Shown here: positions 34,702 to 55,143 of the stretch, in pieces
Layout: every line of letters starts with the position of its first letter
Numbering within the stretch: position 1 is the first letter of the stretch
Source of the DNA: a virus
DNA length: 64,000 bases
IMG/VR virus record: IMGVR_UViG_3300032285_003468
Coordinates: 1-64,000 of that record
Strand: one strand, 5' to 3'
Made by a program: the position numbers and the translations under genes
The notes under the pieces: generated by a model
Seen by the model: only the letters and a program-made list of their open reading frames with translations
Database searches by the model: none
What the model was told of the DNA's origin: nothing

Positions 34702-34713
34702 AGGGGTGTGGGG

Positions 34714-35706: not shown

Positions 35707-35814
35707 CTGGAAAGGGTTGAGGTTAAACGGAAATCACCAGCCCTTTACCAGAAGGCTATCGTGGGAGAATGTGCAGGGAAAGCGTGTCATCTGTCAAGAT
35801 TTAATTACGGTATA

Positions 35815-36297
35815 TTACAAAGGGGTAGCGTTGGCATCTTTTTCTGAAAGAATGGGGTCTACCTCAAGGGGCCAGGGGATACCGCAAGAATCCCACCTGA
35901 CGCATCTCTCGTCTGACTCAACTCTTGGATAATCTACGCAATAAATCACCTTTGCCATATCCGATACCGCTAGAAAACCATGAGCAAATCCCCGTGGTAC
36001 TACCAACTTCTCACTAGTTCCTTCACTTAAATAACGCCATCCGGCCTTACCGAAAGTCTTAGAATACGGCCTGACGTCCACCCAAGCGTCGAATATCTCT
36101 CCTGAAAGAACCAGGATTTCTTTTTTCTGGGGGTATTCCTCTTGGTAGTGCATACCCCTCAACACGTTTTTCTTCGATACCGAAACATTGGTTTGGCTAA
36201 ACCCACTCGAAGAACCGACCTCCGAGAAGTATCCCCTTGAGTCGTAAAACTTTTTTACGATTTCGACCACAGGACCGGATGATTTGTCAAAGTTCAT
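35815..36297 (-). CDS. RmlC-like dTDP-sugar 3,5-epimerase
   Basis: 160 residues (usual length about 180-190). Cupin motifs of the RmlC family: 'DSRGYFSEV' (16-24), 'SQTNVSVSKKNVLRGMHYQ' (with the expected catalytic His at about 50), 'LVVPRGFAHGFLAV' and 'WDSCGIPWP'. It should epimerise dTDP-4-keto-6-deoxy-glucose, giving a rhamnose-type precursor; other genes of the rhamnose pathway are absent, so host precursors would be needed. It overlaps the adjacent glycosyltransferase by 11 bp. AT-rich like the rest of the block. Confidence 0.85.
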   Translation of the reverse strand: MNFDKSSGPVVEIVKKFYDSRGYFSEVGSSSGFSQTNVSVSKKNVLRGMHYQEEYPQKKEILVLSGEIFDAWVDVRPYSKTFGKAGWRYLSEGTSEKLVVPRGFAHGFLAVSDMAKVIYCVDYPRVESDERCVRWDSCGIPWPLEVDPILSEKDANATPL

Positions 36298-37054
36298 TGG
36301 TCGTAGCTTGTTCGAGAGGGTGACGGAGGTAATCTTTTAGGATTTTAATCAAATTAAACGCCAGTCTCATACGAGATCTGCTGCCTCCCGAAAAATGTAG
36401 AAAACTAACGTCATCAAAACATTTTGGATACTCCTCATGAAATTCGCTGTGATTAAAAATCCGAGTCATTTTTCGCGAACAATCTTTCTTTTCTACTCTA
36501 TTCTTGTTCATGACGTATCCAAAGAAAGCATCCTCAGATCTCATTTTGGTATCTAGGGAATAGATAAGATCAACGTCCAGAACTAGGTCCTTCCATACCC
36601 TGGCTCGGGTAAAATAAGTTCCCCCCTCGAAATAGCTGTTCGGGATATCCGCAATGAAATCTCTCCAAGATACACTTTCGCCCACGTACTCGGCATCGCC
36701 CCCAAGGAAACGCACAAAATCCAAATTTAAAACCAACATATCTACGTCAATCTTTTGAATCCAATCCGAAGTATCAGATAATTCTGAAAGCATTTTGAAA
36801 GCAAAGTATTCGTTTTTAATTAGAGCCATACCGTTGCGTTTTACCTTTCCGTGTTGCGAAATTACTATTTCCACGGGGATTCCCAGTTCCATTAGATCAG
36901 AAAGCTGAATCTCTGAAAGCGGCCTATCTGGATTTACGAAAATCCAGAACTTATCAACAAACTTGTGGTAATCTAAATACTTCCAAGTTTCCAACGACAT
37001 TAAGAGATATTGAAATACCCCTCCGTCGGCTATGTAAAAGGGGACAATCTTCAC
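36287..37054 (-). CDS. GT-A fold glycosyltransferase
   Basis: 255 residues. An Asp-x-Asp motif 'KIDVDML' (D103, D105) follows a strand-helix Rossmann-type start ('VPFYIADGGVFQYLLMSLETWKYLDYH...'). No strong match to a numbered GT family that I can name. It overlaps the GT4-like gene by ATGA. Predicted to transfer sugar from a nucleotide sugar in the cytoplasm. Confidence 0.65.
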   Translation of the reverse strand: MKIVPFYIADGGVFQYLLMSLETWKYLDYHKFVDKFWIFVNPDRPLSEIQLSDLMELGIPVEIVISQHGKVKRNGMALIKNEYFAFKMLSELSDTSDWIQKIDVDMLVLNLDFVRFLGGDAEYVGESVSWRDFIADIPNSYFEGGTYFTRARVWKDLVLDVDLIYSLDTKMRSEDAFFGYVMNKNRVEKKDCSRKMTRIFNHSEFHEEYPKCFDDVSFLHFSGGSRSRMRLAFNLIKILKDYLRHPLEQATTNEL

Positions 37055-38115
37055 CGTCCCAGTATTTCTGTTAGGTATTCTTCAATAGACCTACCCATCG
37101 CGTCAGGAGTAAATCTATCCAACCTCCCTACAGGCTTTCTATTTTTGCGGTAAGAGCTTTCTACTATTTGGAAAAACAGTTCCGTTAGGTCTCCCAGTCT
37201 AAAAAACAAAGCATCCGGAAAAACTTTACGATAGGAACCTACGTCCGATAACAAAAGTGGAAGCTCACAGAGAGACGCTTCGATAGCCGTAAGATCAAAC
37301 CCTTGATTGCGAGCGGTTAGATTCAGGTATAGATCCATCGCCGAATAGTAATCAGCCATTTTATCAGGAGGCTCCGAAGGTCTGAATATGACTTTGGGAT
37401 GTCGAAACAGTTCCCCTGAAAAGGGTCCCGATCCAACGGCCAGGATCACTACGTGAGCCGGTAGTAGATCGAGCAAAGGCAGAAGCTGGCCTATCCCTTT
37501 ATCTGGAACAAGCCTCCCCACTATACCCACGCAAAACTGATCTGGTTTTATGCCCAACTCATTCCTCATGTAAGTGGGATCTTTGGGATATACTCCCCCT
37601 CTACCCGCCGGAATCACCCTTATACGATTCGGATCTCCGCCATTATCTACGATAAGATCAGCTTCGTGCGGAGCGATAGCAATGTGCCAGGGGTAGTTTA
37701 AAATATCGGTGTCGAATTTCTTGTCCTCGCAGGGAATTCCCAGTTTACGTAGGTTCAACGCATCTTGCTGACTTCCGATCCCGTGCCAATGCGCTACAAC
37801 GGGAATGTCACCTCCTAGGTGACGTCTACCCGCCGAAGAATGTGAGTAGACCAAATCAAACCCTCCAATCTGAAGGAACTTTTCAAAAGACTTATCGAAG
37901 TACTCGGTAGAATACTTACCCTTGGGACTGTCCGAAAAATGAATTACTAGGTTTCCGTCAAACCGCTCCCGCAGTGACTGATTATCGCAACTCGTTGTAA
38001 AAACGTGAACTTCGTGGCCCAAGTTAGCCAGAACGTTTGCCGTATCTCTGGCGGCAACTTGCATACCCCCGAGTCCGTGATCAGTCCATACCCTGCAATA
38101 CATAGCAATCTTCAT
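37051..38115 (-). CDS. GT4-like glycosyltransferase
   Basis: 354 residues, GT-B fold. N-terminal 'GLGGMQVAARDTANVLANLGHEVHVFT' and 'FDLVYSHSS'; C-terminal 'VGIVGRLVPDKGIGQLLPLL' and 'TAIEASLCELPLLLSDVGSY' near 280 (the E-x7-E-like nucleotide-sugar motif). Retaining GT4-type enzyme; donor and acceptor unknown. Part of a tightly overlapping block. Confidence 0.85.
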   Translation of the reverse strand: MKIAMYCRVWTDHGLGGMQVAARDTANVLANLGHEVHVFTTSCDNQSLRERFDGNLVIHFSDSPKGKYSTEYFDKSFEKFLQIGGFDLVYSHSSAGRRHLGGDIPVVAHWHGIGSQQDALNLRKLGIPCEDKKFDTDILNYPWHIAIAPHEADLIVDNGGDPNRIRVIPAGRGGVYPKDPTYMRNELGIKPDQFCVGIVGRLVPDKGIGQLLPLLDLLPAHVVILAVGSGPFSGELFRHPKVIFRPSEPPDKMADYYSAMDLYLNLTARNQGFDLTAIEASLCELPLLLSDVGSYRKVFPDALFFRLGDLTELFFQIVESSYRKNRKPVGRLDRFTPDAMGRSIEEYLTEILGR

Positions 38116-38121
38116 AAACGA

Positions 38122-38790
38122 TTACAGGAGTGATTTTATTTTTGTGGCTATGTCTGCCACATCCACTTCTATGGAGGTCGAGTTCTTATCAGCAATTTTT
38201 ATTCCTGAGGGAATCGCTTGACTAGCTGAATACTTCAGTCCGAAAACCTCAGCCATCCTCCGATATCCTCCCCAAGAAATGCCGTGCGGATTCATTTCAA
38301 TCACTAAAGACCCGGGTTGCATAAAAATCATATTCGTCAGTCCTGCTCCGTGCGCCCCGATTAACAACACTGAATCTTTTGCCTGTTGCATCTGCTGATC
38401 AAAGCTCAGTTCTTCAGCCACCATTATTTCCACTGGATATCCCAGGGACGCCATATAATCTAAAAGTACACTTTGGTTTGACAGTTTTCGTGTACTTGTT
38501 CTTTCGATTAAAGTTATTATTTCTCTTTTCCTCGTCACCCCCTCGGAAATTTTTCTCATTACGGGACGCATAGCATCGGATACCCCTCCCGCTCTAGGTA
38601 CTACCACTGAATTAGATTTATAAAGTGGTCGGTTAACCTTATCGGCATACTTTAACATTACGTCCTTAAAGTCTCCTCCGTAGCAAATTTCGTCACCCGG
38701 GACATAGAGTTTGTGAAACTCCGGCATATATTCGGCCATAAAATGATAATAATTCTGTATGTGACTGCCTACAAAAAGGAGGGATTTCAT
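38122..38790 (-). CDS. GT61-like glycosyltransferase
   Basis: 222 residues from ATG 38790, whose ATGA overlaps the upstream stop; an earlier ATG would overlap further. Core 'LLIGAHGAGLTNMIFMQPGSLVIEMNP' (about 141-165) is the GT61/DUF563 hallmark, preceded by a catalytic-domain start 'YYHFMAEYMPEFHKL'. Shorter than typical GT61 proteins (350+), so only the core domain is kept. Confidence 0.8.
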   Translation of the reverse strand: MKSLLFVGSHIQNYYHFMAEYMPEFHKLYVPGDEICYGGDFKDVMLKYADKVNRPLYKSNSVVVPRAGGVSDAMRPVMRKISEGVTRKREIITLIERTSTRKLSNQSVLLDYMASLGYPVEIMVAEELSFDQQMQQAKDSVLLIGAHGAGLTNMIFMQPGSLVIEMNPHGISWGGYRRMAEVFGLKYSASQAIPSGIKIADKNSTSIEVDVADIATKIKSLL

Positions 38791-39410
38791 AAATTTGTTT
38801 GGCACCACTCTACCGCTTTTTGACGGTACTTCCAGTGCTCTGGGTGTTTGTGAATCGCGTACGGTGCAGGCAGAGGTAGATAGGGAACCGGGTAAGCAAA
38901 ACCCCCTTTGGTGATTCCGGATAAAAGAATGTCCTCCCCGTTTCCCACAGGAACTCCCCCAACAAATTCCTGGAATGCATTGAAATGTTGTAATGCTTTA
39001 GCGCAGATCGATGGAGACGTGATCATCCCACGGGTCAGTACTACCTGGCATTTACCAAAGCAATCTTCACCGTATTTCCCCCCTACAATTCTTCTACCCT
39101 CTATACTGTGGGGTTTTCCCGAATTAGACTTCCACATCCCATAGAGAAATTGAACCGAACTTTCCGGAATCTCCAGATCGTCGTCCGCAATTAAAACAGC
39201 GGGGGTGCGGCAAAGAGACGCTACAGCAAACCTACTAAAAAGTCCTAAATCTTCGGAAGAGGATATACAAACAGCCCCCTCGGGAAACACGGGGTCGCCG
39301 TTGTTAACCACATACACTTTTGAAAACTTACCGTAGTGAGCCGATAATCGGATCACGTTGTCGGGCCGTTTCCAATTAAGGATTACAGTTGATAGGGATG
39401 ATGGGTTCAA
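38787..39410 (-). CDS. GT64/exostosin-like glycosyltransferase
   Basis: 207 residues. Starts 'LSTVILNWKRPDNVIRL' (GT-A), with 'VLIADDDLEIP' (DDD, 76-78) for metal and nucleotide sugar, and 'EFVGGVPVGNGEDILLSGI' near the C-terminal acidic catalytic site, matching bacterial GT64-like proteins. Overlaps both neighbours (35 and 4 bp). Confidence 0.7.
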   Translation of the reverse strand: MNPSSLSTVILNWKRPDNVIRLSAHYGKFSKVYVVNNGDPVFPEGAVCISSSEDLGLFSRFAVASLCRTPAVLIADDDLEIPESSVQFLYGMWKSNSGKPHSIEGRRIVGGKYGEDCFGKCQVVLTRGMITSPSICAKALQHFNAFQEFVGGVPVGNGEDILLSGITKGGFAYPVPYLPLPAPYAIHKHPEHWKYRQKAVEWCQTNL

Positions 39411-40152
39411 GGTCTAGGTGAGATTTGCTGAAATTGATGTTCACTCTTGCAGATCCCCAACCGGTTAGGTTGGCTATAAACTTCCCATTGCTTAAATTGT
39501 CTAGGCTCAGGTTTTGGTTTTGGCACTTGAGGTCCAGCCAGCTTTTATATCCGGTATTGGCGGCTTTATCCGCGTAATTATTTGGAACTGGAGATAAATA
39601 GTTAAAATCGACTATCTGATTTATGCTTATCCCAGATAGAGCCGCGCGGGCTAAAATATCACTGTCTTGATAACCGTGCGGTAGAAAGGATTCATCGTAG
39701 CCCCCCAAAGCGTAAAACCATTCTTTGGCCATGCCTATTCTACCAAAAGTTCCATCGTGTACGTCAGCGTATAGATGAGCTACCTTTCGGTCGCCGTCGA
39801 TCAAGTGTTCGTCCAATAGAACCCGCACTCCCTGTAGGTAATTGTCTGCGTCAAGATTCATCAAAAAAGGTGCGTCTGCCATCCGGTGAGCTAAGTTCTT
39901 CGCTTTAGAACAATCGTAAACCGAGACGTCCTGAACTTTAACGATCTTAATTTGCCCGTTTGAAAGCAGGTTTTTTATTCCGGGATAGTGGTAAAGATAC
40001 TTTTCCAAACCATCAGAGCTTCCATAATCAACGATCACGAGTTGCTCGTCATCTTTTAAAAGGCTGAGATTAACTGGGAATGTAAAAGCAAACTGCCACA
40101 GACGATTCATTATCTGAGTGCAGTACGAAACCTTTGGGGTGAAAGCTACCAT
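39376..40152 (-). CDS. GT2 family glycosyltransferase
   Basis: 258 residues from ATG 40152, which overlaps the upstream stop (ATGGTAG); a longer reading would lie within the zinc-protein gene. Motifs: 'VIVDYGSSDG' (39-48), 'KAKNLAHRMADAPFLMNLDADNYL' (DAD, 101-103), 'GYDESFLPHGYQDSDILARA' (ED-like catalytic region). GT-A inverting enzyme; substrate unknown. Confidence 0.8.
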   Translation of the reverse strand: MVAFTPKVSYCTQIMNRLWQFAFTFPVNLSLLKDDEQLVIVDYGSSDGLEKYLYHYPGIKNLLSNGQIKIVKVQDVSVYDCSKAKNLAHRMADAPFLMNLDADNYLQGVRVLLDEHLIDGDRKVAHLYADVHDGTFGRIGMAKEWFYALGGYDESFLPHGYQDSDILARAALSGISINQIVDFNYLSPVPNNYADKAANTGYKSWLDLKCQNQNLSLDNLSNGKFIANLTGWGSARVNINFSKSHLDLEPIIPINCNP

Positions 40153-40463
40153 TTGCCTAGGGGACAGGAAGCAGTAGCTAGTTTTAATTTGATAAGCGTA
40201 GAGCACCCACACTCAAGGCACTTTCCGGTATTGCTAAAAGCGGTAGGGTCAAATTTATCACACCCCCGGCAAGTCGCATTTCTTTTATCCAGGGTAGTTT
40301 CGTCCACTACCGGAAAACCCTCTTTAGCCCATTCCGAAAGGGATTTGGTAAAATCAACCGCTTTTGAGAAGGGCTGTTTAAGTAATTCCTCCCGCTTTTT
40401 CTGTATTTCCTGCCTTCCCCGCAAGAAGGGGGGTACATATTGATTGTTGTCAGATTCGCTCAT
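40146..40463 (-). CDS. Zinc-ribbon protein
   Basis: 105 residues from ATG 40463; a longer reading overlaps the upstream gene. The C-terminus carries 'CRGCDKFDPTAFSNTGKCLECGCSTLIKLKLATASCPLGKW': six Cys in C-x2-C...C-x2-C-x-C...C, ending C-P-x-G-K-W. I know this from small phage proteins next to glycosyltransferases; it may help a glycosyltransferase or redox function. Charged helical N-terminus. Confidence 0.7.
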   Translation of the reverse strand: MSESDNNQYVPPFLRGRQEIQKKREELLKQPFSKAVDFTKSLSEWAKEGFPVVDETTLDKRNATCRGCDKFDPTAFSNTGKCLECGCSTLIKLKLATASCPLGKW

Positions 40464-40482
40464 GTTACAGCAAGATTTCACA

Positions 40483-40719
40483 TTAACCACCTTCTTGTTC
40501 GACACCGCCATTATTCCAACCGTAATCAATGCAGTTGTCATCGTCTGCCAAGGTCACAGTTATCGTTACACTGGGGGGGGTAACCTGATCGTTTCCATCG
40601 TCTCCTCGAGTGTCGTAGTAAAGAGGTATTTCTTTACCGAAAAAAGTTAACGTGCCCGCCGATTCCCAATCAGAAAGGGGGGATGAGACTAAAGAAGTTT
40701 GATTAGTTGGATCGGACAT
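40483..40719 (-). CDS. Small hypothetical virion-type protein
   Basis: 78 residues from ATG 40719 (2 bp after the upstream stop). Ser/Thr-rich start, then beta (TLTFFGKEIPLYYDTRGDDGNDQVTPPSVTITVTLADDD), Gly/Glu tail. Function unknown. Confidence 0.5.
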   Translation of the reverse strand: MSDPTNQTSLVSSPLSDWESAGTLTFFGKEIPLYYDTRGDDGNDQVTPPSVTITVTLADDDNCIDYGWNNGGVEQEGG

Positions 40720-40721
40720 AA

Positions 40722-41513: not shown

Positions 41514-42961
41514 TAGTAGGGAATTGGGTAGTTGGCTGCCTTGCCGCCAATGCAAATAGAACTCATCACTAGATTTGTTGTGACATACTGCTCGGGGAAA
41601 CCCCCAACTATCTTGGCCAAGGCTATCCTCGCTTTGTTCTGTTTCTTCGGACTACCTCCATCGTCTTCCACGTAAGAACCCGTAGTCCAGGCATTCGCCG
41701 TACCGTTAAATGAACTGTCGCATTTAATGTTGGCTGAAGTGACGCTTCCATCACTTGTGCTGATTCCCAACTCTAAATAGACATAATTTCCGTCTGTAGC
41801 GGATACCCATCCGTTAATTCCACTGGAGTTTCGGCTGGGGGGAGTTGGGTTTTGAGTACCTCCTGAAGGGGCACTCGGTGCAGTACCCGGGGTTCCCCCA
41901 GATCCTCCCCCTCCGGTGTTAGTATCGGTGGGGGTAGATAGGAGTCCGGTAATAGATTGAGTGTCCCCCGGTTTTAGCGATTTAAAAAGATGCGAATAGT
42001 AGACCACCCCAACTTGTGCGCTCCCGTTGGTTTCTTTCCGCATGATTACTTTGAAAGGGTGCGTAAAGGCGTCGTAATACTCGTCAGCGTTTCTAGGTAC
42101 TCCGCTGCTGGCGGGCAAATTGGCAACGCTTTGAAAAGCGGCTAGAACCTTCTTTCTACCATCCGCTCTCGTCAACAATACTGGGATATACTTATCTCCC
42201 AGTTTGGACATCGTAAATGCAGCAAGGGCTTCTTTTCTCTTTTCAGGATCAGTAATCGCATTGATCCTGGAGTTCTCCGCCAATCTTTCTTGGTAATCCT
42301 TTTGACTTTCACCATTGTGCCGATACTGGTCGGCCATCCGGGCTTTGCCAGTTTCGTACTCTTTATCCGACATACTACTGACCTTGGAGGCGTTTACCTC
42401 CATCTGATCGTCATACGATTTGGTGGCTTGAGCCTTTGCTTCCTCGGAGGAAACCTTGCCGCCAGAGTCTTTCTGAATCTGATTCGCTATTGCTTTAATC
42501 GTGTCTTCTTTGGACATCGGAGTAGAACTAGTTCCTAGATACGTAGCAAAATCCGAAGAAGTCTTCTGCTCTAATGCCACCCGGGTTCTATAATCTTCCG
42601 GCATCTCCATCGGAGTAGAAACCGAAACTCCCATCGACCCCGAAGCAGGTTTAGCGGCCGGTAATGGGAAATCTACCTTGCCGCCGGAAACGTCCGCAGG
42701 CTGACCAGCTACGGTTACGTTGTTCTTTACAAAATCTTTGATGGTATTGACTACAGACTCCTGGGTAACTGGTTGCGTCGGAACCCCAGATAACTGCGGC
42801 ATCGGAGGGGGTGCCACATATTCTGATTTCGGTAAAGACGGAGAATTGGAGGGCTGCTGAGTAAGGGTTACCGGATCAGCAGGCGAGTTCTTCGTCAGAG
42901 GTACGTTGGGTACCGGTGGCGGGTTAGGGGGCAGGTTGGATTTAGGAGTCTCGTCACTCAT
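41513..42961 (-). CDS. Hypothetical virion-type protein with Pro-rich start
   Basis: 482 residues: Pro-rich disordered start (1-60), helical acidic middle (about 110-270: 'SKEDTIKAIANQIQKDSGGKVSSEEAKAQATKSYDDQM'), Gly/Pro/Thr linker (about 345-385) and a beta C-terminal domain (NGWVSATDGNYVYLELGISTSDGSVTSANIKCDSSFNG). Part of a set with its two downstream neighbours. Structural role inferred from position. Confidence 0.55.
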   Translation of the reverse strand: MSDETPKSNLPPNPPPVPNVPLTKNSPADPVTLTQQPSNSPSLPKSEYVAPPPMPQLSGVPTQPVTQESVVNTIKDFVKNNVTVAGQPADVSGGKVDFPLPAAKPASGSMGVSVSTPMEMPEDYRTRVALEQKTSSDFATYLGTSSTPMSKEDTIKAIANQIQKDSGGKVSSEEAKAQATKSYDDQMEVNASKVSSMSDKEYETGKARMADQYRHNGESQKDYQERLAENSRINAITDPEKRKEALAAFTMSKLGDKYIPVLLTRADGRKKVLAAFQSVANLPASSGVPRNADEYYDAFTHPFKVIMRKETNGSAQVGVVYYSHLFKSLKPGDTQSITGLLSTPTDTNTGGGGSGGTPGTAPSAPSGGTQNPTPPSRNSSGINGWVSATDGNYVYLELGISTSDGSVTSANIKCDSSFNGTANAWTTGSYVEDDGGSPKKQNKARIALAKIVGGFPEQYVTTNLVMSSICIGGKAANYPIPY

Positions 42962-43554
42962 ACAAACTTGTGCCAGTTAAAGACACTTCCCCATGCTCCC
43001 TCGATCAGATGACCAAAAGATAGGGGGTGATCTGCGCGGGATTCTTTAAGGAAGGCTTCGTAAGTAGACTTGGGGCTAGCTAGAATGGTTTCTTTGCTGA
43101 CAAAGAACTGAGCCCCAATGTTTCCGGGAACCCCGGGAGGTACTTTGTCTTCGCTTCCGAAAACTCGGATAAACACATCCATAATAGGACCCATAGGCTT
43201 TTGTGACATCCAAAGGGGGAAAGCACCCATACCGCCGACATACCTCAAAGGTTCTGAGGGTATGAAGTTTTCGGTCAAGATGTCGATGACATCACGTGCG
43301 CTGTGATCAAAGGGCATCCCTTGAAAGAAAATTGTATAGTCCGAGTGATCCCCGTAATGATCTACGAGATGCTGAAAATACTGGCCCGCCTCACGACCGC
43401 CGTTAGGGACCATGACGGGTTTTACGTCGGTCTGGAATTCGGTACGGTCTTCTTTAGCGCAATAAAGAAATACCCGCCAATGAGAGGGTATCCACTTCAT
43501 CCACGATAGATTCTCGCCGTACGAGGCAATCACCAAATCAATACTGGGTTTCAT
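42958..43554 (-). CDS. DUF3431-like glycosyltransferase-associated protein
   Basis: 198 residues: 'DLVIASYGENLSWMKWIPSHWRVFLYCAKEDR', 'NGGREAGQYFQHLVDHYGDHSDYTIFFQGMPFDHS'. The E-(A/S)-x-x-(Y/F)-x-x-x-(I/L)-x-x-x-Y-x-x-(L/H)-x-D-x-(T/V)-x-F-x-Q-G pattern matches my memory of DUF3431 proteins, found with glycosyltransferases. ATGA overlap with the next gene. May be a sugar transferase or synthesis helper. Confidence 0.6.
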   Translation of the reverse strand: MKPSIDLVIASYGENLSWMKWIPSHWRVFLYCAKEDRTEFQTDVKPVMVPNGGREAGQYFQHLVDHYGDHSDYTIFFQGMPFDHSARDVIDILTENFIPSEPLRYVGGMGAFPLWMSQKPMGPIMDVFIRVFGSEDKVPPGVPGNIGAQFFVSKETILASPKSTYEAFLKESRADHPLSFGHLIEGAWGSVFNWHKFV

Positions 43555-43564
43555 AAATTTGAAA

Positions 43565-45844
43565 TCAGACGGTCTTTTGCAATAGGACTTCGGCTTTTTC
43601 GGTTACCCATACCCCATATTTCCAATGCTCACTGCTTCGGCTTCCAACCTCAATCCAGTTGCCCCAGGGCAGATCGGAATTGGAAGTTGCGGGTATGGTG
43701 ACGGAAACCGAATTTACGTAGGGAGAGGTGAGCTGAATCTCGGGGCGAAGGCACTTGGGTAGCTGAATTGAAAGTAGGTTTTTTCCGGTTGTATATCCGG
43801 CGGAACTAGAAGAATAACTACTTGTTCCACTAGAAGTCGAGCTACTCGTTCCGCTAGAAGTAGAACTGCTAGTTCCACTAGTTGTGGAGCTGCTTGTACC
43901 GCTAGTCGTGGAGCTACTGGTTCCGCTAGAGGTTGAGCTATTGGTACCACTCGTCGTTGAACTGCTTGTGCCGCTAGACGTTGAACTGCTGGTTCCGCTG
44001 GTTGTAGAACTGCTGGTTCCGCTGGTTGTAGAACTGCTCGTGCCGCTAGTCGTGGAGCTACTGGTACCACTGGTTGTAGAACTGCTTGTACCACTCTGGG
44101 TGGAACTGCTAGTTCCGCTCTGGGTAGAACTACTGGTTCCGCTTTGATGTGAACTGCTTGTACCGCTAGTCGTGGAGCTGCTGGTTCCACTTTGAGTTGC
44201 ACTATTTGTGCCGCTCTGGGTAGAACTACTGGTTCCGCTGGTCATAGAGCTGTGAGTTCCACTTCCCGACGAAGTATCGTTTGAAGAACTACCACTGTTA
44301 GTAACCCTACTTGTAACCGGGTCGCTGGTGAGTACTGCCCCGGCTCCATCATGAGTCCACGTAGTTTCCGAAGAGGAAGCACCCTTTCCGGAAATTCCGC
44401 TTTGACTGGAGCTGCTAGTACCGCTGCTAGTAGAGCTGTTTGTTCCGCTCTGAGTAGAGCTGCTGGTACCGCTGCTAGATGAACTACTGGTTCCGCTCTG
44501 GGTAGAGCTGCTGGCACCGCTTTGGGTGGAGCTGTTGGTTCCGCTAGTCGTAGAACTGCTGGTAGCGCTTTGAACAGAGCTACTAGTTCCGCTTTGGGTG
44601 GAACTGCTGGTTCCGCTTTGGGTGGAACTGCTGGTTCCGCTTTGGGTAGAGCTACTGGTTCCGCTTTGGGTGGAACTGCTGGTTCCGCTTTGGGTGGAAC
44701 TGCTGGTTCCGCTTTGGGTAGAGCTACTGGTTCCGCTTTGAGTGGAACTGCTAGTTCCGCTCTGGTGAGAACTGCTAGTTCCGCTTTGAACAGAGCTGCT
44801 GGTGCCGCTGCTGGTAGAACTGTTGGTTCCGGTTTGCGAAGAGGTATTGGAACCACTTCCAGAGGAAGTGCTTTGAATGAAACGGGTCGAAGTATACTCG
44901 ATAACCGCGTTAAAGGGTTGTGGGCTTAAAAGGTAATCGAGAGTAACAGACTCCTCAGTCGGGGGGCCAAAGGTGAAGGTCCTGGTGTACCTGGCTTTAA
45001 GGGGTCCGATTGGAGCTTCCTCGAAATGGGGGACGAAAGCCAACTGCTCCGAACCGACCAGTTCGGCGGAAACAAGGATCGGGGGAAGATCAGGCGCTGA
45101 ACGACGCCCGTACCAGACCTGAGGCTCGGGCAGGGCAGGTAGAATACTAGTAAGACGGGTGCTTTGGAGGGTATCGACCGGGTCGATATCGGAAGAACGG
45201 ATGGATCCGTCTTGAGCGCGAATCACACTCGGTCCGACTCCTGCGGGAACCGTCTGCTTCTCTACAAGAACGGGAATGCCATACCGGGCGTCTACCTGAC
45301 CCCCGTAAATCGTAGGGCCGGGCAGAGTGATATAGACTCTGGTAACTTTGATGTACTGGCTATCGAGCGATTTGTCGTCTGCGTCGGACTCGTCTTTGTA
45401 GCGGGTAACCTCCTCTGTATTGAGGACTACGTCGTTTCCATTAGGGGCCGTAGGGAAGAGGGGGTCAACAGAACCTTTCCCAAGCGGTACGTACCCGGCC
45501 CGGGGAATGGTATAAGTACGGATGTAGGACGGGAAATTGGGGTCGGACCCAGCATACTTGATCGCGTAATTGTAAGAATCCTGATTGTCGCGGTCCGTAG
45601 CGTAGACCCGGCGGATCCACATGAAGTTCTGCTCCTGGTCGAGCGGGGTCTGATAAACCAGCTTGAGGCCGGGGAAAGAAATTTGGTCAGGATGAAGGTC
45701 TCCGTATGATAGTGTTACGTAACCAGGAACGCGGGTATCCACGTCCTGGACCACCATCAAATCTTGTACGTTGGGTGTAGGGTAACTGATTACCGGGATT
45801 TCCGGTGACAGAGCGCGGGGTGAAGGTTGTTTAGAAGCGGCCAT
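43565..45844 (-). CDS. Virion-type protein with mucin-like Ser/Thr repeats
   Basis: 759 residues. Residues 1-320 are ordered ('DVDTRVPGYVTLSYGDLHPDQISFPGLKLVYQTPLDQEQNFMWIRRVYATDRDNQDSYNYAIKY', a beta-type structural fold). About 325-680 is a Ser/Thr repeat of 8 residues (SGTSSSTQ, later SGTSSSTT), interrupted at about 483-527 by a unique stretch (GKGASSSETTWTHDGAGAVL). About 690-759 is a short ordered C-terminal domain. Repeats this rich in Ser/Thr are typical O-glycosylation substrates. Two glycosyltransferase blocks lie on either side. Start TGATG overlaps the upstream zinc-ribbon gene. Confidence 0.75.
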   Translation of the reverse strand: MAASKQPSPRALSPEIPVISYPTPNVQDLMVVQDVDTRVPGYVTLSYGDLHPDQISFPGLKLVYQTPLDQEQNFMWIRRVYATDRDNQDSYNYAIKYAGSDPNFPSYIRTYTIPRAGYVPLGKGSVDPLFPTAPNGNDVVLNTEEVTRYKDESDADDKSLDSQYIKVTRVYITLPGPTIYGGQVDARYGIPVLVEKQTVPAGVGPSVIRAQDGSIRSSDIDPVDTLQSTRLTSILPALPEPQVWYGRRSAPDLPPILVSAELVGSEQLAFVPHFEEAPIGPLKARYTRTFTFGPPTEESVTLDYLLSPQPFNAVIEYTSTRFIQSTSSGSGSNTSSQTGTNSSTSSGTSSSVQSGTSSSHQSGTSSSTQSGTSSSTQSGTSSSTQSGTSSSTQSGTSSSTQSGTSSSTQSGTSSSTQSGTSSSVQSATSSSTTSGTNSSTQSGASSSTQSGTSSSSSSGTSSSTQSGTNSSTSSGTSSSSQSGISGKGASSSETTWTHDGAGAVLTSDPVTSRVTNSGSSSNDTSSGSGTHSSMTSGTSSSTQSGTNSATQSGTSSSTTSGTSSSHQSGTSSSTQSGTSSSTQSGTSSSTTSGTSSSTTSGTSSSTTSGTSSSTTSGTSSSTSSGTSSSTTSGTNSSTSSGTSSSTTSGTSSSTTSGTSSSTSSGTSSSTSSGTSSYSSSSAGYTTGKNLLSIQLPKCLRPEIQLTSPYVNSVSVTIPATSNSDLPWGNWIEVGSRSSEHWKYGVWVTEKAEVLLQKTV
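43810..44870 (-). repeat. 24-bp coding tandem repeats (SGTSSSTQ/SGTSSSTT)
   Basis: Over 1 kb of 24-bp units encoding Ser-Gly-Thr-Ser-Ser-Ser-Thr-Gln/Thr. Many units differ at silent positions, but around 44594-44745 several are nearly identical in DNA (ggttccgctttgggtggaac pattern), suggesting recent expansion. A non-repeat spacer lies near 44265-44395. Confidence 0.9.
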
Positions 45845-46023
45845 CAGTCTTCCTCCTCAGTATGTCGTTTACGTTTGCCGTTCTTCGGAGCGTGCCGAAG
45901 GGTGAATTTACCGCTTCCGGGGTCACTTTGCTCTCCGGACAAACAAATCTCGCAGAGCCCGTTGTAAATAGCGGGCTCTTCGTCACAGAGGCGACAGAGT
46001 TGTTCATCGTGGTTGTAGTGCAT
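45844..46023 (-). CDS. Small zinc-ribbon protein (59 aa)
   Basis: Reading from ATG 46023 gives 59 residues with two Cys pairs (CRLC at 10-13, CEIC at 24-27), then 'SGEQSDPGSGKFTLRHAPKNGKRKRHTEEED'. Stop TGA overlaps the next ATG (TGATG at 45844). Eight bases upstream of its start is an ATATACCG site. The Cys spacing and overlap make it a convincing small gene; function unknown (a chaperone or assembly helper is possible). Confidence 0.7.
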   Translation of the reverse strand: MHYNHDEQLCRLCDEEPAIYNGLCEICLSGEQSDPGSGKFTLRHAPKNGKRKRHTEEED

Positions 46024-46031
46024 TGGAGACG

Positions 46032-46052
46032 CGGTATATTATTGACGTCAAG
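46032..46052 (-). promoter_or_regulatory. CTTGAC-N7-ATATACCG motif
   Basis: Minus strand CTTGAC (46052-46047), seven bases, ATATACCG (46039-46032), then CG. The same arrangement, with CGCG following, occurs at 60685-60705 before the portal. It lies 8 bp before the zinc-ribbon ATG and inside the 3' end of the lysozyme gene. Promoter or regulator site is inferred. Confidence 0.45.
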
Positions 46053-46539
46053 TCAAGATGTCTAGCCCAAGAAATTTAGCCTCGTCATAAATCCGGGCCT
46101 TCCAGCCGGAAAGATACTCTTTAGAAGCCGGGCGGTGCTGAACAATAAGATCGAAGACATGGAGTTCGTCTTTCAGATAACCCTCCGGTGTCTTCTGACG
46201 GTTGCGAATCAGGTTAGCCTGATTACGACCGCTCATAGTGGCGCAGTTGAAGTAGATCTCCCCGTACTTAGCGGGCATCAGTTCAATCCGGTCATAGCAC
46301 CAGTGCTTCCAGTAGATGGCGATAGCCTGGTCATAGGTGAGATCAGCAATCTGCTGCTCAGTAAGTTTCCACGGGGCTTCCTTGTGCTCCCCATAATCGA
46401 GACCAAATTTAGTGGTTCCTCCCGGGTCGTTTGGGTCACGCTCTACACGGGCATGGGCATAGTCGCCGTAGTGACCTTTTTCAAACTCAGTCTCGTGTTT
46501 GAGAACAAAAGGGATAAAAGAGTTAAATCGTGAGGTCAC
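46048..46539 (-). CDS. Endolysin, GH108-like muramidase
   Basis: 163 residues. 'FVLKHETEFEKGHYGDYAHARVERDPNDPGGTTKFGLDYGEH' matches GH108 muramidases: catalytic Glu16 in H-E-T-E and the D-P-x-D-P-G-G-x-T-x-x-G-x motif. 'YDQAIAIYWKHWCYDRIELMPAKYGEIYFNCATMSGRNQA' follows the family pattern. It cleaves host peptidoglycan; no signal peptide, so a holin would be needed. It overlaps the membrane protein gene upstream by 17 bp. Confidence 0.88.
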   Translation of the reverse strand: MTSRFNSFIPFVLKHETEFEKGHYGDYAHARVERDPNDPGGTTKFGLDYGEHKEAPWKLTEQQIADLTYDQAIAIYWKHWCYDRIELMPAKYGEIYFNCATMSGRNQANLIRNRQKTPEGYLKDELHVFDLIVQHRPASKEYLSGWKARIYDEAKFLGLDILT

Positions 46540-46975
46540 GGGATAGAAAATCCTTGGGAGATCTCCGCCCTGGGACGAAGACCTCCGTGGTGGTAGGGCT
46601 CTGCAAACCGGAAGAAAGGTCTAGGTTGCCAATCGGCTGGTTACTGGACACGTCTAAAGAATTGCTCTGGTCCAAACTGCGGACCTGCTGCTCGACTTCA
46701 GAGATTACGTTTTGGGCTTGGCTAGTTCCCATCTTCCACTCGTAGACGAGCTTTCCAGTAACCATAAAAATGATGATTGCTCCGATAACGTAAAAGGCGT
46801 TTGTCGTAATGGAGACAAACCCGGCTAGGGCGGGAGTGGGAAGGGTATAGAGGTGGCAAACAGCCCATCTCCAGCTTCCCTCAATGACGAGTACCCCCGT
46901 GACGGAAAGCACCAACCTCTGCCAAGTCGGGGGCAGTTTATCAGCTACTTTGTTGGGAGAGGGTAGTGGAGGCAT
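46523..46975 (-). CDS. Two-span membrane protein, holin candidate
   Basis: 150 residues from ATG 46975, 2 bp after the upstream stop (a longer reading would overlap the upstream gene). Hydrophobic segments about 19-33 (QRLVLSVTGVLVIEG) and 52-78 (AGFVSITTNAFYVIGAIIIFMVTGKLV), then a Ser/Gln-rich soluble tail. Directly upstream of the endolysin, the usual place of a holin or spanin. Confidence 0.55.
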   Translation of the reverse strand: MPPLPSPNKVADKLPPTWQRLVLSVTGVLVIEGSWRWAVCHLYTLPTPALAGFVSITTNAFYVIGAIIIFMVTGKLVYEWKMGTSQAQNVISEVEQQVRSLDQSNSLDVSSNQPIGNLDLSSGLQSPTTTEVFVPGRRSPKDFLSRDLTI

Positions 46976-46977
46976 GA

Positions 46978-47487
46978 CTAGAGATAGCGAACCCAGGTAA
47001 AAATAACGAGAAACACAAACCCTGCGACTACGGCCCTTCCCGCTAGGAAATAAACAGCGGTCTGAGGGTTTACGTAAGGTATAAGCAAGCCCAAGAGTAC
47101 AAAAGCAAGCCAAGCTGCAACAGAAGCCAGAAGAATCCCCAATAGATTGAGTTTCTTCTGATATTTACTAATAGCCTTCTCCTTCTCGATTATCTTTGCA
47201 TCTTTAGTCTCAGAATCAGATTTCCACCAGTCACGCTCCCCGGCCAGCTTGTCAGCCTGAAACTGAACAAAAGATAGTTTTTGCTGAGTGCTTGCCACCT
47301 CCACTCTTCCCGACTGAGCGATCTGGCGGATAAGTTTCCTATCGTTTTCTTTCTGAATCTTCTGGAAATCAGAGTCGATGTTGGTCAAACCCTGCGACAC
47401 TGGTGCCGTGTCAATCGAAGTCTGGCTCTTGTGAGCACAGCTACAGAGTAACAGGGTGGCAAAGGAAATAAGGGTTAATTTTAGCAT
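46978..47487 (-). CDS. Lipoprotein with C-terminal membrane spans (lysis-associated?)
   Basis: 169 residues. Signal peptide with lipobox 'LCSC' (acylated Cys17), a coiled-coil middle (about 40-100) and two hydrophobic C-terminal segments (KLNLLGILLASVAAWLAFVLLGLLIPY and YFLAGRAVVAGFVFLVIFTWV). A lipid anchor at one end and membrane spans at the other fits a spanin-like bridge, but topology is not proven. The gene contains ACCAGTGTCGCAGGGT, shared with the tail adaptor gene. Confidence 0.55.
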   Translation of the reverse strand: MLKLTLISFATLLLCSCAHKSQTSIDTAPVSQGLTNIDSDFQKIQKENDRKLIRQIAQSGRVEVASTQQKLSFVQFQADKLAGERDWWKSDSETKDAKIIEKEKAISKYQKKLNLLGILLASVAAWLAFVLLGLLIPYVNPQTAVYFLAGRAVVAGFVFLVIFTWVRYL

Positions 47488-47499
47488 ATACGGTTAATG

Positions 47500-47773
47500 T
47501 TAAGTGAATAGCATGGTTGAGTTACTTTGAGTGAAACTCCAACCGGAGTATTGTTTAAAATTGATAACGTCGTTTGCGAGCGCAATACCCAATATGTTAC
47601 CGCCGGGAGGTATAAGTAACTCCTACTTCCGCCAATAAAGGGGCTCCGGAGAACCTTCGGATCTCACAAAAGAAATGGCACGAGGTCAGATCAACTGAGG
47701 TTGAGCTAATAGGTAGAAACGCCGAAAAATCGACGCCCTGTTTAATGTTGGGGAAGTCTTGCTTTAAGATCAT
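47500..47773 (-). pseudogene. Frameshifted small phage protein (about 90 aa)
   Basis: ATG at 47773 overlaps the upstream stop (ATGA). Frame one (47773-47597) reads 'MILKQDFPNIKQGVDFSAFLPISS...DLTSCHFFCEIRRFSGAPLLAEVGVTY' and then hits TAA. The +1 frame, open after a TAG at about 47623, continues 'LIPPGGNILGIALANDVINFKQYSGWSFTQSNSTMLFT' to TAA at 47500. Both halves resemble the beta-type phage family 'ikqGadf...DLTgy....iR....g..l'. One base is missing or a +1 frameshift occurs within 47597-47620. Could be a true decayed gene, a programmed event or a sequencing error. Confidence 0.6.
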
Positions 47774-48084
47774 TTTACGGGAGGGTGCTCGGAAACAAGG
47801 TGATCCTCGATCCGTTTAGTGCGGTCGTTGATTTGAGCCAACGTAGCCATGGCTCCAGCAAGAAGCTCGCGACGTTGAGCGGAGTCCTGCTGAATGGTTT
47901 CAATCACGCGATCCTGATCGCGGTCGTGGATCTCCAAGCGAGTAACACGCTCAGGGATAACTGCCCAAAATGACACGAACCCTAAAAGGGCGACGACGCC
48001 GGTAAGAGATCCTACAATAGAATAAAACTCTTTCTTCGGCATTGTTACTGTGGCTTCTCCTGCGGTATCGGTTCCTGTAGTCAT
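47770..48084 (-). CDS. Membrane-anchored coiled-coil protein (holin-like)
   Basis: 104 residues. One hydrophobic segment about 21-45 (FYSIVGSLTGVVALLGFVSFWAVI), then a long charged coil (ERVTRLEIHDRDQDRVIETIQQDSAQRRELLAGAMATLAQINDRTKRIEDHL). This layout occurs in phage holins or XhlA-like lysis partners. ATGA overlap with the frameshifted gene. Confidence 0.6.
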   Translation of the reverse strand: MTTGTDTAGEATVTMPKKEFYSIVGSLTGVVALLGFVSFWAVIPERVTRLEIHDRDQDRVIETIQQDSAQRRELLAGAMATLAQINDRTKRIEDHLVSEHPPVK

Positions 48085-48150
48085 AGTTGGGTAGTTGTTT
48101 AGGATACCCGGCTCAGTAGTTTCCCACTGAACCGGGATATCTCATCGGGG

Positions 48151-48348
48151 TTACTTGCTGAAGCGGATGTTCAGCACGCCGGAGCCATCGGGCTGGACGT
48201 TGATCGCAACAGCGACTGCGTCGGCGAGGGAGGACTCGCTAGCCGGAAGGGTGAGAAGCGGGGTGAGCGCAGCCTTGACGGCGGCGACATCAGCAGCTTC
48301 GAGCTTGGCGGTGGCGACGATGGGTTGGGTTTGGAGGGCGATTGCCAT
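48151..48348 (-). CDS. Small hypothetical protein
   Basis: 65 residues, Ala/Val-rich: 'MAIALQTQPIVATAKLEAADVAAVKAALTPLLTLPASESSLADAVAVAINVQPDGSGVLNIRFSK', a small alternating helix/strand fold. Lies between a glycosyltransferase block and the lysis genes; might be a decoration or tail component. Confidence 0.5.
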   Translation of the reverse strand: MAIALQTQPIVATAKLEAADVAAVKAALTPLLTLPASESSLADAVAVAINVQPDGSGVLNIRFSK

Positions 48349-48393
48349 TGTTGTGTTTGTCCGGTTTGGTCAGTTGGACTCTTCTGGTTTCCC

Positions 48394-49194
48394 CTAGACG
48401 GGTTCCGATTGCCCACCAACTGCGCTGTTGATCGGGGTTTCGGGTTGTCCGTCGACGGGTGAAAAGGTTGAGACGCGGGAATCTGCGACTGCGTAAAGGG
48501 GGTGCCATCCGGGTTTCCAGCAAGCCATATCTCGGGGCATAAGGATCTTGTCAGCTTTGCCAGTCCAAGCGGCCCACCAGGAGAAGGTGGAGGGAGAGCA
48601 CACCAGTGTTTTAGCGTTATACAGGGTGCGGTAATCATGCAAAGAATCCCCGGTCGCCGCTAAAGAGCAGCCGGGAACGAGTTGTAGAAACTTCGCTACG
48701 CGAGGGCTGGATGGTTCGTCGGTAAGTAAATAACACTCATCAGACCCCAAAGACCTAGCGGCAGAAGCGATTGTTTCGATGGGGTAAGCGTGCTCCTCAA
48801 TAGTCTTAGGAGAACCGCTAAAGTAATCCCCCAACCGCAAATGGATAACTGGGACCTCGGTAACGAAATACTTCCCATCGTCGGGGGTCAGCTTGGAGGA
48901 GATAAGATCTTTGTATGGAGAATAGTATTCGGGACAGTGAGGCCACCCGGTAACTATGAGATCAGAAGACTTGGCAAGCTCGGCCACTTTTTCAACACCT
49001 TGGGCTCTTAGCAAATCTTCAGTGACCCCAATAGCCTTGGGCGAAATAGAGGGAGTAGCGTACCCTTTGGTACCAGAGAACCCCTCGATAGGAAACGTTG
49101 CCAGGGCAGATCCACTCAAATGCGAAAGAACCAGCCCCAGAGCAAACTGGAAAAGCCGATTACCTAAGCGACCTGTGTAGTGAACGTGAATCAT
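48394..49194 (-). CDS. GT11-like fucosyltransferase
   Basis: 266 residues. 'GRLGNRLFQFALGLVLS' (about 8-24) and 'VPVIHLRLGDYFSG' (115-127; family motif HxRRGDY) define the GT11 group, with 'CYLLTDEPSSPRVAKFL' and 'CSPSTFSWWAAWTGKADKIL'. GT11 proteins usually carry two Arg in the motif; here the second is Leu (RLGD). Likely transfers fucose or a related sugar; acceptor unknown. ATGA overlap with the next glycosyltransferase. Confidence 0.8.
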   Translation of the reverse strand: MIHVHYTGRLGNRLFQFALGLVLSHLSGSALATFPIEGFSGTKGYATPSISPKAIGVTEDLLRAQGVEKVAELAKSSDLIVTGWPHCPEYYSPYKDLISSKLTPDDGKYFVTEVPVIHLRLGDYFSGSPKTIEEHAYPIETIASAARSLGSDECYLLTDEPSSPRVAKFLQLVPGCSLAATGDSLHDYRTLYNAKTLVCSPSTFSWWAAWTGKADKILMPRDMACWKPGWHPLYAVADSRVSTFSPVDGQPETPINSAVGGQSEPV

Positions 49195-49826
49195 GCGTCG
49201 TAAGTAATAGTGTCCGAGTTATTTCGGGCAGCGTGCAGTGAACCCGTGCGATCCGAGACCGATTCCGCCGTGGTAAATGGCAGAACCGCAGGGCGATAGA
49301 GGCTCAAGCCGCAGGATCGCAAGGAAGACATAAGTACGGACTCATAGCAAAGTCCGACTGATCCATCCGTTGCTTTGCCGACTTGAGAAGTGGCCAGAAT
49401 ACGCCATGCGTTGAGCATGAAGGCGGATTTCTTGAGGACTGGCAGGTAGATCACCGCCTGGGAACCAAAGAAAGGCTTGTCAATCGCAGTCCAATCTCCC
49501 TTGGACTCAGTCAGTCCGTCGCCGCCAAGAATGATTGCTCCGCAGTCCTTGGGGATTTGTGAGGATTGAGAGAACTGCTGCCAGAGTGAGGGATCGAGAA
49601 CCGCATCATCCTCTAAAACAAGTAGGGGTTCATTATCGGGTAGATCCGTAAGAATTGCGTTAAGATGGGAAGCGGAGCAGCCTACAATCGCCTGCTCATA
49701 CGGAAGATTATTGCGCGGGGGGACGACCGCTTCGGTAATCTTAATACCCTTAAAAAACCTCATCAAAGGAAGCAGAAACTGCTCTCTATCGGTACGTTCG
49801 GATCGGTGGATGATAACTGTTTTCAT
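49191..49826 (-). CDS. GT25-like glycosyltransferase
   Basis: 211 residues. 'VGCSASHLNAI' (49-57) and 'LLVLEDDAVLDP' (EDD, 72-74) are GT25/LPS galactosyltransferase signatures; no signal peptide. Coupled by ATGA on both sides. Confidence 0.85.
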   Translation of the reverse strand: MKTVIIHRSERTDREQFLLPLMRFFKGIKITEAVVPPRNNLPYEQAIVGCSASHLNAILTDLPDNEPLLVLEDDAVLDPSLWQQFSQSSQIPKDCGAIILGGDGLTESKGDWTAIDKPFFGSQAVIYLPVLKKSAFMLNAWRILATSQVGKATDGSVGLCYESVLMSSLRSCGLSLYRPAVLPFTTAESVSDRTGSLHAARNNSDTITYDA

Positions 49827-50473
49827 AGTTCGGACTGTTTCAAGACGCAGTTAATAGCATTTAATTTTACGGGATTTCCCATCAAGTAATTGGCGTGGAA
49901 CACAACCGTACCTTCTGGAACCGCAAAAAACTCGGGAACGAAGAACGGAATCAAGTGATCCTGGCGAAAGCCCAAGCTGTACACTTTCGGTGAGAAGAAA
50001 ACTGAGCCCTCTCCCTCACCATACTGGACAACTTTATTGGCCGCCTCTTGATCCGTGAGATTCTCACTTTCGGCCAAATCCAAAACATTTTTCAAAAGCT
50101 GTTTGGTAGAAAAGTTTACTTTGGCGGCAAAGAAACCCATGCAGACCGTACCCCTATCGTTTTGAAATTTAATATCTACCCCATTTAGTTCGTCGGTAAT
50201 GAAGGGAAGTAACGGTTTTAAGAAAATCACATCCACATCTGAATAGATAAAGATTTCTCCTTCGTTCATGCTTTCCATTTGATCCAAAACACGAGACAGC
50301 TTGGTTCTAGAAGTTTTTGCCCACCCGGGGCTATTGAAAAATGCCGAGGGACATTCCTGGGGAATCTCCTGTTGCACAAGCTCGATTCCATCGTTCTGCG
50401 GAAAGGTCTTCAAGAAGGCTTCCAGAAACGCCTTATGGGAATCAGAATAGACTGTTAAAAGTTTAACGCTCAT
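49823..50473 (-). CDS. GT77-like glycosyltransferase
   Basis: 216 residues. 'EIFIYSDVDVIFLKPL' with D-x-D (79-81), preceded by 'SRTKLSRVLDQM'; near the end 'DHLIPFFVPEFFAVPEGTVVFHANYLMG'. GT77-like nucleotide-sugar transferase fold. Overlaps both neighbours. Confidence 0.75.
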   Translation of the reverse strand: MSVKLLTVYSDSHKAFLEAFLKTFPQNDGIELVQQEIPQECPSAFFNSPGWAKTSRTKLSRVLDQMESMNEGEIFIYSDVDVIFLKPLLPFITDELNGVDIKFQNDRGTVCMGFFAAKVNFSTKQLLKNVLDLAESENLTDQEAANKVVQYGEGEGSVFFSPKVYSLGFRQDHLIPFFVPEFFAVPEGTVVFHANYLMGNPVKLNAINCVLKQSEL

Positions 50474-51179
50474 TTTCGGAATAAATGTTTTTCACGATTG
50501 CTGTGTCGTAAACGGCTGGGGTCGTAAACAAATGGGATGAAATGATGTCGTTGTACGGGGCGGGATGGGTCGGGTATTCCGCGTATCGGGAATCGGAATG
50601 CAAAATGATCCCGTTAGAGGCCATCAGAGTAGAAACCCACCTGTCGTCAGCCCAATCGGTAACCTCGCTTTCAGCTATCAATTTGGCGGCTTTGGGGCCT
50701 ACCCAGTATCCGGCACCGCCTCTGGCACCAGTAGTCGTCACCGGAGACCACGGGGGGAGCCATGAGTATGATTTCCCGGTATACTCGTGATCCTGATACC
50801 CGCTAAACGCCAAACGGAGGGCGTCGAAATAAGGGTCCGAGTAGCACACGAAAACGTAATCATACCCGTTCTCAATAGCCCATTTGACCTTCTCCTTGGT
50901 CTTATAGGCTACGTAAGGATATGAATCCGGAACTGGCAGTTCTACCACGTCATCCGCTGGGGGGACTTCACCGACAAATTCACCCTGTTTGTGGGGTAGG
51001 AAGTATTGACTCAGGGGTACAGGTAACTCCGTCTTGGAAGCATTCGGGCTACCCACAAATATGCGGTAATCCAATCCTTCGAGGCCGGAAACGTCCTTTA
51101 AGAACGTATCGCGGCACACTTGGTTGAACCCGTTATGCTCAAACAGCCTACAGCTACTTATTGCGATGAGCGATTTCAT
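50463..51179 (-). CDS. GT31-like glycosyltransferase
   Basis: 238 residues from ATG 51179 (a GTG at 51185 overlapping the fibre stop is the alternative). 'DYVFVCYSDPYFDALRL' replaces the DxD region, 'GARGGAGYWVGPKAAKLI' and 'VTDWADDRWVSTLM' follow the GT31 order (GGxGY..., acidic catalytic D/E). Donor and acceptor unknown. First gene of the block directly downstream of the fibre, so fibre glycosylation is a natural guess. Confidence 0.6.
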   Translation of the reverse strand: MKSLIAISSCRLFEHNGFNQVCRDTFLKDVSGLEGLDYRIFVGSPNASKTELPVPLSQYFLPHKQGEFVGEVPPADDVVELPVPDSYPYVAYKTKEKVKWAIENGYDYVFVCYSDPYFDALRLAFSGYQDHEYTGKSYSWLPPWSPVTTTGARGGAGYWVGPKAAKLIAESEVTDWADDRWVSTLMASNGIILHSDSRYAEYPTHPAPYNDIISSHLFTTPAVYDTAIVKNIYSENER

Positions 51180-51181
51180 GG

Positions 51182-54532: not shown

Positions 54533-54556
54533 GGGATTTTTTCTTAAAAGTTGGGT

Positions 54557-54590: not shown

Positions 54591-54602
54591 GGGTTTTGAT
54601 TT

Positions 54603-55127: not shown

Positions 55128-55143
55128 ACGGTTTGGTAATCAT

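Follow-up and report, generated by a model that had tools for sequence, protein, structure and literature searches.

A glycosyltransferase set and a Ser/Thr-repeat protein with a predicted elongated beta-hairpin are probably separate features of an uncultivated phage

Why would a phage encode a series of glycosyltransferase (GT)-type genes among its virion genes, with a protein that carries a long Ser/Thr repeat between them? The question is raised by positions 35815–51179 of IMGVR_UViG_3300032285_003468, a 69,213-bp (69.2-kb) uncultivated virus record whose bases 1–64000 form the window analysed here; we refer to this phage as G000 and to related records and loci by G and L numbers. An earlier, sequence-only reading had proposed a glycosylation system built around a mucin-like protein. 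Our analysis suggests that the GT blocks and the repeat protein are probably two separate things: an accessory GT set, and a protein with an elongated beta-hairpin. Phage-encoded GT sets are already known; what had not been expected is a hairpin with matched arms, previously taken for a mucin.

A check of related phages for co-occurrence of the repeat with the GT blocks did not bear out a system centred on the repeat protein. The repeat is present in G000, G006, G002 (G020 encodes the same protein), G007, G008 (partial), L067, L153, L210 and L212, of which L067, L210 and L212 are short fragments. Among these records a GT block is found in G000 alone: G006 has one early GT4 gene, G007 has only a DUF3431 gene, and L153 (76 kb, encoding a repeat protein of 1989 amino acids) gave no GT2 or GT4 match. 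GTs are also encoded by repeat-free relatives, including G001, G005, G019, G040, G032, G059 and about ten others. The sequence-only reading had stated what would speak against it, namely relatives in which the repeat protein is retained and the GTs are consistently missing, and this is largely what G006, G002, G007 and L153 show. On this comparison, GTs and repeats appear to occur independently of each other. Weighing against this conclusion, GTs were called absent on the basis of three Pfam families, of searches for homologues of the window GTs and of those late regions that were read; a divergent GT could have escaped notice, and several of the records are fragments.

As far as gene content tells, the distribution of GT genes across relatives fits accessory genes that are gained and lost. 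Two conserved late genes, whose orthologues are direct neighbours in G001 and G002, are separated here by the first GT block (block 1):

34714–35706, minus strand: conserved virion-type protein, downstream edge of the block 1 insertion; 58–70% identity to G006, G002 and G001
40146–40541, minus strand: Cys-cluster protein (CxxC...CxxCGC), upstream edge of the block 1 insertion; phrog_13558 match at 1.7e-11, conserved across the lineage

None of the nine GTs in the window had a homologue in 12 relatives by blastp, and the late regions of G006, G002, G001, G007 and G003, read gene by gene, contained no GT block. Elsewhere in the genome, relatives have GTs of different families: GT4 in G006 and G001, GT2 in G005 and G019, and, in G040, four GTs plus a weak GT9-like gene. 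An early-strand GT4 is present in several relatives. Block 1 has a GC content of 0.446, lower than that of the adjoining structural genes (0.561). Bacterial contamination was considered as the source of the GTs and rejected, because on a single contig the GT genes are interleaved with phage late genes and overlap them. We propose that the GT genes are a mobile, accessory set for glycan modification, which a podovirus-like phage probably gained by insertion at three late positions: one between the 34714 and 40146 genes, one ahead of the repeat protein, where the DUF3431 gene lies, and one immediately behind the fibre gene. A tenth GT lies at an early site where some relatives likewise carry a GT. 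The block sites are empty in close relatives, so that one phage lineage can be compared cleanly with and without its sugar enzymes. To our knowledge, the array is among the richer ones for a phage of such size. In repeat-free relatives, a weak GT9/heptosyltransferase-like gene is found in the late operon near the Cys-cluster gene (L167:8340–9224 and L172:2697–3578).

What, then, is the repeat protein? Its gene divides into five parts:

44894–45844, minus strand: conserved N-terminal part (residues 1–317); 78% identity to G006 and G008
44408–44893, minus strand: left arm (residues about 318–479), predicted beta-strand; 8-residue unit with Gly and Thr on opposite parities
44270–44407, minus strand: non-repeat tip (residues about 480–525); lowest content of Ser, Thr, Gly, Asn and Gln
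43763–44269, minus strand: right arm (residues about 526–694), predicted return strand; length within 7 residues of the left arm
43565–43762, minus strand: conserved C-terminal end (residues 695–759); IPAT...SEHWKYGVWVTE kept in repeat-bearing homologues

The repeat is far beyond chance, with Tandem Repeats Finder scores of 187–458 for the main arrays, and Ser and Thr make up 65% of the repeat segment. An assembly artefact was rejected as its origin, given the open frame, the conserved flanking domains and its presence in independent contigs. The stretch that had been described as over 350 residues of Ser/Thr repeat consists of two arms around a non-repeat tip. The mucin-like label did not survive comparison with the Pro/Thr/Ser-rich (PTS) tandem repeats of mucins: the segment is rich in Ser and Thr, but the arms lack the prolines of mucin PTS domains, proline being confined to the tip, and their matched lengths and alternating residues suggest a beta-hairpin. 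A TSDP..SRVTN-like motif in the tip recurs in the tips of G007 and L153. The N-terminal domain belongs to a family with at least 154 loci in IMG/VR, of which we kept 80; most lack the repeat. In the 1989-residue homologue (L153:9992–15961), the left arm is largely (Ser-Gln)n and the right arm largely (Thr-Ser)n.

We measured the arms between two conserved anchors, FNxVxEY and LPKCLR, and the non-repeat tip (43–67 residues). Sliding-window thresholds of 0.65–0.75 agreed on the borders of the tip, and at 0.80 or above the tip finder fails for some proteins. From anchor to tip, the left and right arms span 181 and 196 residues in G000, 182 and 190 in G006, 285 and 282 in G002, 182 and 194 in G007, 164 and 166 in L067, and 785 and 787 in L153, and are thus nearly equal in six homologues over a fivefold range of length. 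Across seven proteins, Gly falls on one parity at all 415 of its 415 positions, counted from both anchors, and Thr lies mostly on the opposite parity; this does not hold for the left arm of L153 or the right arm of L210, in which the dominant residue is Gln or Ser. Repeat periods vary among homologues (8, 10 or 4/12), and every one of them is even. Even periods, fixed parity and matched arms are together what an antiparallel two-strand hairpin requires, and would not be expected of a disordered linker.

A structural prediction was obtained for L148, a repeat-free homologue, with AlphaFold2 and a 27-sequence alignment; its predicted local distance difference test (pLDDT) score averaged 76 and was near 90 over most of the C-terminal part. 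The model places two strands, 588–614 and 617–645, joined by a tight turn, exactly in the anchor-to-anchor segment. That segment measures 51–66 residues in 27 repeat-free homologues, compared with 330–1572 in repeat-bearing ones, and the position of the L148 hairpin suggests that the repeat arms extend a hairpin that was already there. An elongated antiparallel beta-hairpin, which may form part of a needle, fibre or tube, is in our view well supported by the sequence patterns together with this one prediction. Several points weigh against it. The arms are unequal in L210 (285 and 246) and L212 (285 and 150). The arm lengths of G000, G006 and G007 are similar and may not be independent. AlphaFold2 on the window repeat protein itself, with four sequences, reached a pLDDT of 29 and was discarded, leaving the arms without a direct model, and L148 is a single homologue predicted as a monomer. 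L210 and L212 appear to come from one virus, the difference between them being exactly six units of 16 residues; misassembly is the likely candidate cause of their unequal arms, because the L210 right arm holds an exact repeat of 191 bp, whereas such repeats did not exceed 83 bp in any other arm that was measured.

The arms could instead be a disordered, low-complexity linker that has spread by replication slippage, their equal length being coincidental. Linkers are typically rich in Ser, Gly and Thr, the tandem repeats are visible in the DNA, and AlphaFold2 gave no structure for the window protein, all of which such a linker would explain. It leaves unaccounted for the equality of the arms over a fivefold length range, the Gly parity of 415 of 415 from both anchors, the hairpin predicted in L148 and the tips with a common motif, and we consider it unlikely. 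According to the hairpin model, tandem duplication of a Ser/Thr dyad repeat would have lengthened the C-terminal beta-hairpin of a conserved virion-type protein, such that the chain runs out along one arm, turns at the non-repeat tip and returns along an equal arm, with Thr and Ser on one face of the hairpin and Gly, Ser, Asn and Gln on the other. Several copies might associate into a needle, fibre or tube, and the appendage would be about 50 nm long here, assuming that the arms form extended strands with a rise of 0.33 nm per residue. More doubtful is the further proposal that matched duplication on both strands builds a needle or beta-barrel tube whose length is encoded directly, each arm having about 130 to 785 residues, and so gives a tail extension of tens to hundreds of nanometres without a tape-measure protein. 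If the hairpin is true, it would amount to a simple length rule for a thin viral appendage, in which the same number of residues is added to both strands, and it cautions against labelling Ser/Thr-repeat phage proteins as mucin-like. Our literature search found no text on Ser/Thr hairpin repeats in phages.

A known counterpart is the long tail fibre protein gp37 of T4, a thin needle in which three chains contribute six antiparallel beta-strands (PMC9659904), so that each chain would run out and back, as in the proposed hairpin; the needle measures about 150 by 25 angstrom (PMC3004832). Here, by contrast, the arms are Ser/Thr dyad repeats in which no series of HxH motifs was seen and, if extended, they would be several times longer (about 50 nm in G000 and up to about 260 nm in L153). 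The best structural matches to the C-terminal half of L148 were hairpin pore proteins (perforin-2, complement C9, pneumolysin and gasdermin), with VIA-align Z scores of 5–7; against the MACPF/CDC proteins, the best Z was 7.1, with a root-mean-square deviation of 5.7 over 135 aligned residues, and Foldseek gave an E value of 2.9e-03 at best. L148 and these pore proteins have in common two long hairpins that rise from a sheet, and Z values below 8 can mean merely a common arrangement. There is no sequence similarity, and both faces of the arms are polar, which is not the case in a membrane barrel. The matches are compatible with hairpins that associate side by side, and are too weak to argue for membership of the family. 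Among the better structural matches to the L148 model there was no known phage nozzle or fibre, which excludes neither.

For the GT set, we judged Pfam matches against the curated cut-off of each family and read short motifs by eye. The late genes occupy the minus strand between the terminase (62.5 kb) and a protein of 3041 amino acids (22.7 kb), and every gene named in the sequence-only reading was found as an intact open reading frame (ORF), mostly overlapping its neighbours. Block 1 (35815–40212, 4.4 kb) comprises an RmlC gene and five GTs:

35815–36297, minus strand: RmlC-type dTDP-4-dehydrorhamnose 3,5-epimerase, last gene of the block; PF00908 at 3.4e-39, motifs RGxHYQ and PRGFAHGF
36287–37054, minus strand: putative GT-A-like glycosyltransferase, assigned from DVD and ED motifs
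37051–38115, minus strand: GT4 glycosyltransferase (GT-B fold); PF13439 at 3.8e-15 and PF00534 at 2.4e-08
38122–38808, minus strand: GT61 glycosyltransferase; PF04577 at 9.8e-19
38787–39410, minus strand: GT64-like glycosyltransferase; PF09258 at 1.9e-05, 24.6 bits (cut-off 21.3) over only 47 matched residues, DDD motif
39376–40212, minus strand: GT2/GT7C-type glycosyltransferase, first gene of the block; PF10111 at 5.4e-09 and PF02709 at 4.7e-05

The best matches to RmlC in bacterial genomes were scattered (Coxiellaceae, Ruegeria, Chlamydiae and Pelagibacteraceae), the nearest that was found having only 48% identity, and no donor can therefore be named. The 36287–37054 product matched no family over its cut-off and nothing in phages or viral contigs, and the GT61 protein, the only one among 21 related records, likewise had no match in viral contigs or phages. 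The two remaining late sites hold the DUF3431 gene and block 2, four GTs directly behind the fibre gene:

42958–43554, minus strand: DUF3431 protein, third insertion site, adjoining the repeat protein; PF11913 at 6.9e-15
48394–49194, minus strand: GT11-like glycosyltransferase, last gene of block 2; PF01531 at 18.1 bits, below the cut-off of 23.9, motifs HLRLGDY (HxRxGDY) and STFSWWAAW (SxFSWWAAW)
49191–49826, minus strand: GT25-like glycosyltransferase; PF01755 at 15.4 bits, below the cut-off of 24, EDDA (EDD) motif
49823–50473, minus strand: GT77-type glycosyltransferase (Nucleotid_trans); PF03407 at 1.8e-07, over the cut-off
50463–51185, minus strand: GT31-like glycosyltransferase, first gene of block 2, overlapping the fibre stop codon; 29–31% identity to two L145 proteins
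51182–54532, minus strand: tail fibre-type protein, with no more than 27 residues homologous to fibres of relatives

The DUF3431 gene stands alone beside the repeat gene and has an orthologue at the same place in G007; no text on DUF3431 as a GT was found in the literature. Pfam assigned no GT family to the 50463–51185 product; of the two neighbouring L145 proteins related to it, one matches Galactosyl_T (PF01762, 9.8e-06). Its metal-binding motif reads YSD in place of the DTD or DDD of the L145 homologues, and because the first Asp of DxD is replaced by Tyr, its activity is doubtful. L145, a viral contig of 204,633 bp, has a GT array of its own (5396–14117, with GT2, GT31-type and GT10-type genes), in which a homologue of 50463–51185 is fused behind a GT11 domain. 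Protein Data Bank sequence searches with the 36287, 48394, 49823 and 50463 proteins and with the repeat family returned nothing usable. Outside the window, a tenth GT (PF03214, RGP-type, 1.8e-08) lies on the plus (early) strand at record positions 65222–66055 (L068:1222–2055), shortly after a RuvC-like gene; the GT4 genes of G006 and G001 are beside the same RuvC-like gene. In total, the phage has ten GT-type genes, which include at least five families supported by Pfam, as well as RmlC and DUF3431. The nine GT-like genes, epimerase and DUF3431 protein described previously thus all exist, and GT4, GT61, GT2, GT64, GT77-type, RmlC and DUF3431 exceed their cut-offs; GT11 and GT25 stay below theirs, and two genes (36287–37054 and the GT31-like 50463–51185) match no family. 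The set is indeed encoded among virion genes, at three separate late sites and not around one acceptor.

The adjacency of fibre and GT genes is as had been described: the first GT of block 2 starts at 51185 and the fibre stops at 51182, a 4-base overlap. Only 27 residues of the fibre are common with a G006 fibre-type protein, and there is no wider match in the other relatives, suggesting that fibre and block 2 may have arrived together. Relatives encode collagen-like GATG-repeat fibre-type proteins in this region (L077–L080, G001 47146–55495; L070, G006 34530–36044), where this phage has an unrelated fibre.

On what might the GTs act? They would be expected to draw on host sugar nucleotides, with RmlC giving a rhamnose-type precursor, and to build an oligosaccharide late in infection. 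Either the virion or the infected cell might be glycosylated. We tentatively favour a virion protein, the fibre being the first candidate acceptor, because of the late expression suggested by gene order, the coupling to the fibre gene and the mycobacteriophage precedent described below. Alternatively, the GTs may act late in infection on host envelope glycans (lipopolysaccharide, O-antigen or capsule), a change that might, for instance, keep progeny from adhering to debris or block competitors. GT4, GT61, GT2 and RmlC are families typical of bacterial surface polysaccharide pathways; most of the GTs lack a strong hydrophobic segment (only the GT4 has one over a Kyte–Doolittle score of 1.6), as would fit cytosolic enzymes that could act on lipid-linked intermediates, and several relatives carry the early-strand GT4. 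However, no initiating transferase, flippase or polymerase was recognised among the genes scanned, the gtrABC families (GtrA flippase, membrane-bound GtrB/Gtr) were absent from the Pfam-scanned proteins, and most of the genes are late rather than early, with block 2 coupled to the fibre gene; we regard envelope modification as possible but somewhat doubtful.

O-glycosylation of the Ser/Thr repeat, to give a mucin-like glycoprotein coat on the virion, would agree with the adjacency of GTs and repeat gene in one late operon, with a segment that is 65% Ser and Thr, and with the DUF3431 gene that adjoins the repeat gene here and in G007. It is decidedly unlikely, given repeat-bearing relatives without GT blocks, GTs in repeat-free relatives, and arms whose missing prolines, strict alternation and equal lengths are unlike a disordered mucin tract. 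Very improbable is glycosylation of the phage DNA at a hypermodified base: phage GTs that act on DNA are reported in PMC12619734, but TET/JBP (PF12851) is absent from this record and 20 relatives, no thymidylate synthase-like hydroxymethylase was seen among the early proteins scanned, and most of the GTs are in the late operon. The remaining probability falls to another target or to none.

Virion glycosylation by phage-encoded GTs has precedents. In the mycobacteriophages Che8, Corndog and Myrna, phage GTs are reported to glycosylate capsid and tail tube proteins, and particular GTs, such as Che8 gp110 and Corndog gp38, are named as essential (summarised in PMC12363180 and PMC12619734). There, particular enzymes are singled out, whereas this phage has ten GT-type genes, with RmlC and DUF3431, that might act in such a way. 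The chlorovirus PBCV-1 likewise encodes several GTs of its own, by which a complex glycan is assembled on one of its virion proteins (PMC7826918, PMC9614988); it is a eukaryotic algal virus with N-glycans on its major capsid protein, and its likeness to this phage is one of description.

Relatives of the phage terminase and capsid are present in IMG/VR; terminase and portal gave zero matches in 50,697 cultured-phage records, and thus point to no cultured relative and no host. Structural proteins mostly matched no family in a PHROGs search. The 3041-residue late protein (22745–31870) contains a Kinase-PolyVal domain, as in polyvalent proteins, and is 24–38% identical to relatives in parts only. 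A tyrosine integrase gene (62744–63910) adjoins the terminase and is conserved in relatives; although alignment of the terminase to bacterial genomes found no prophage, the conserved integrase suggests that the lineage may be temperate.

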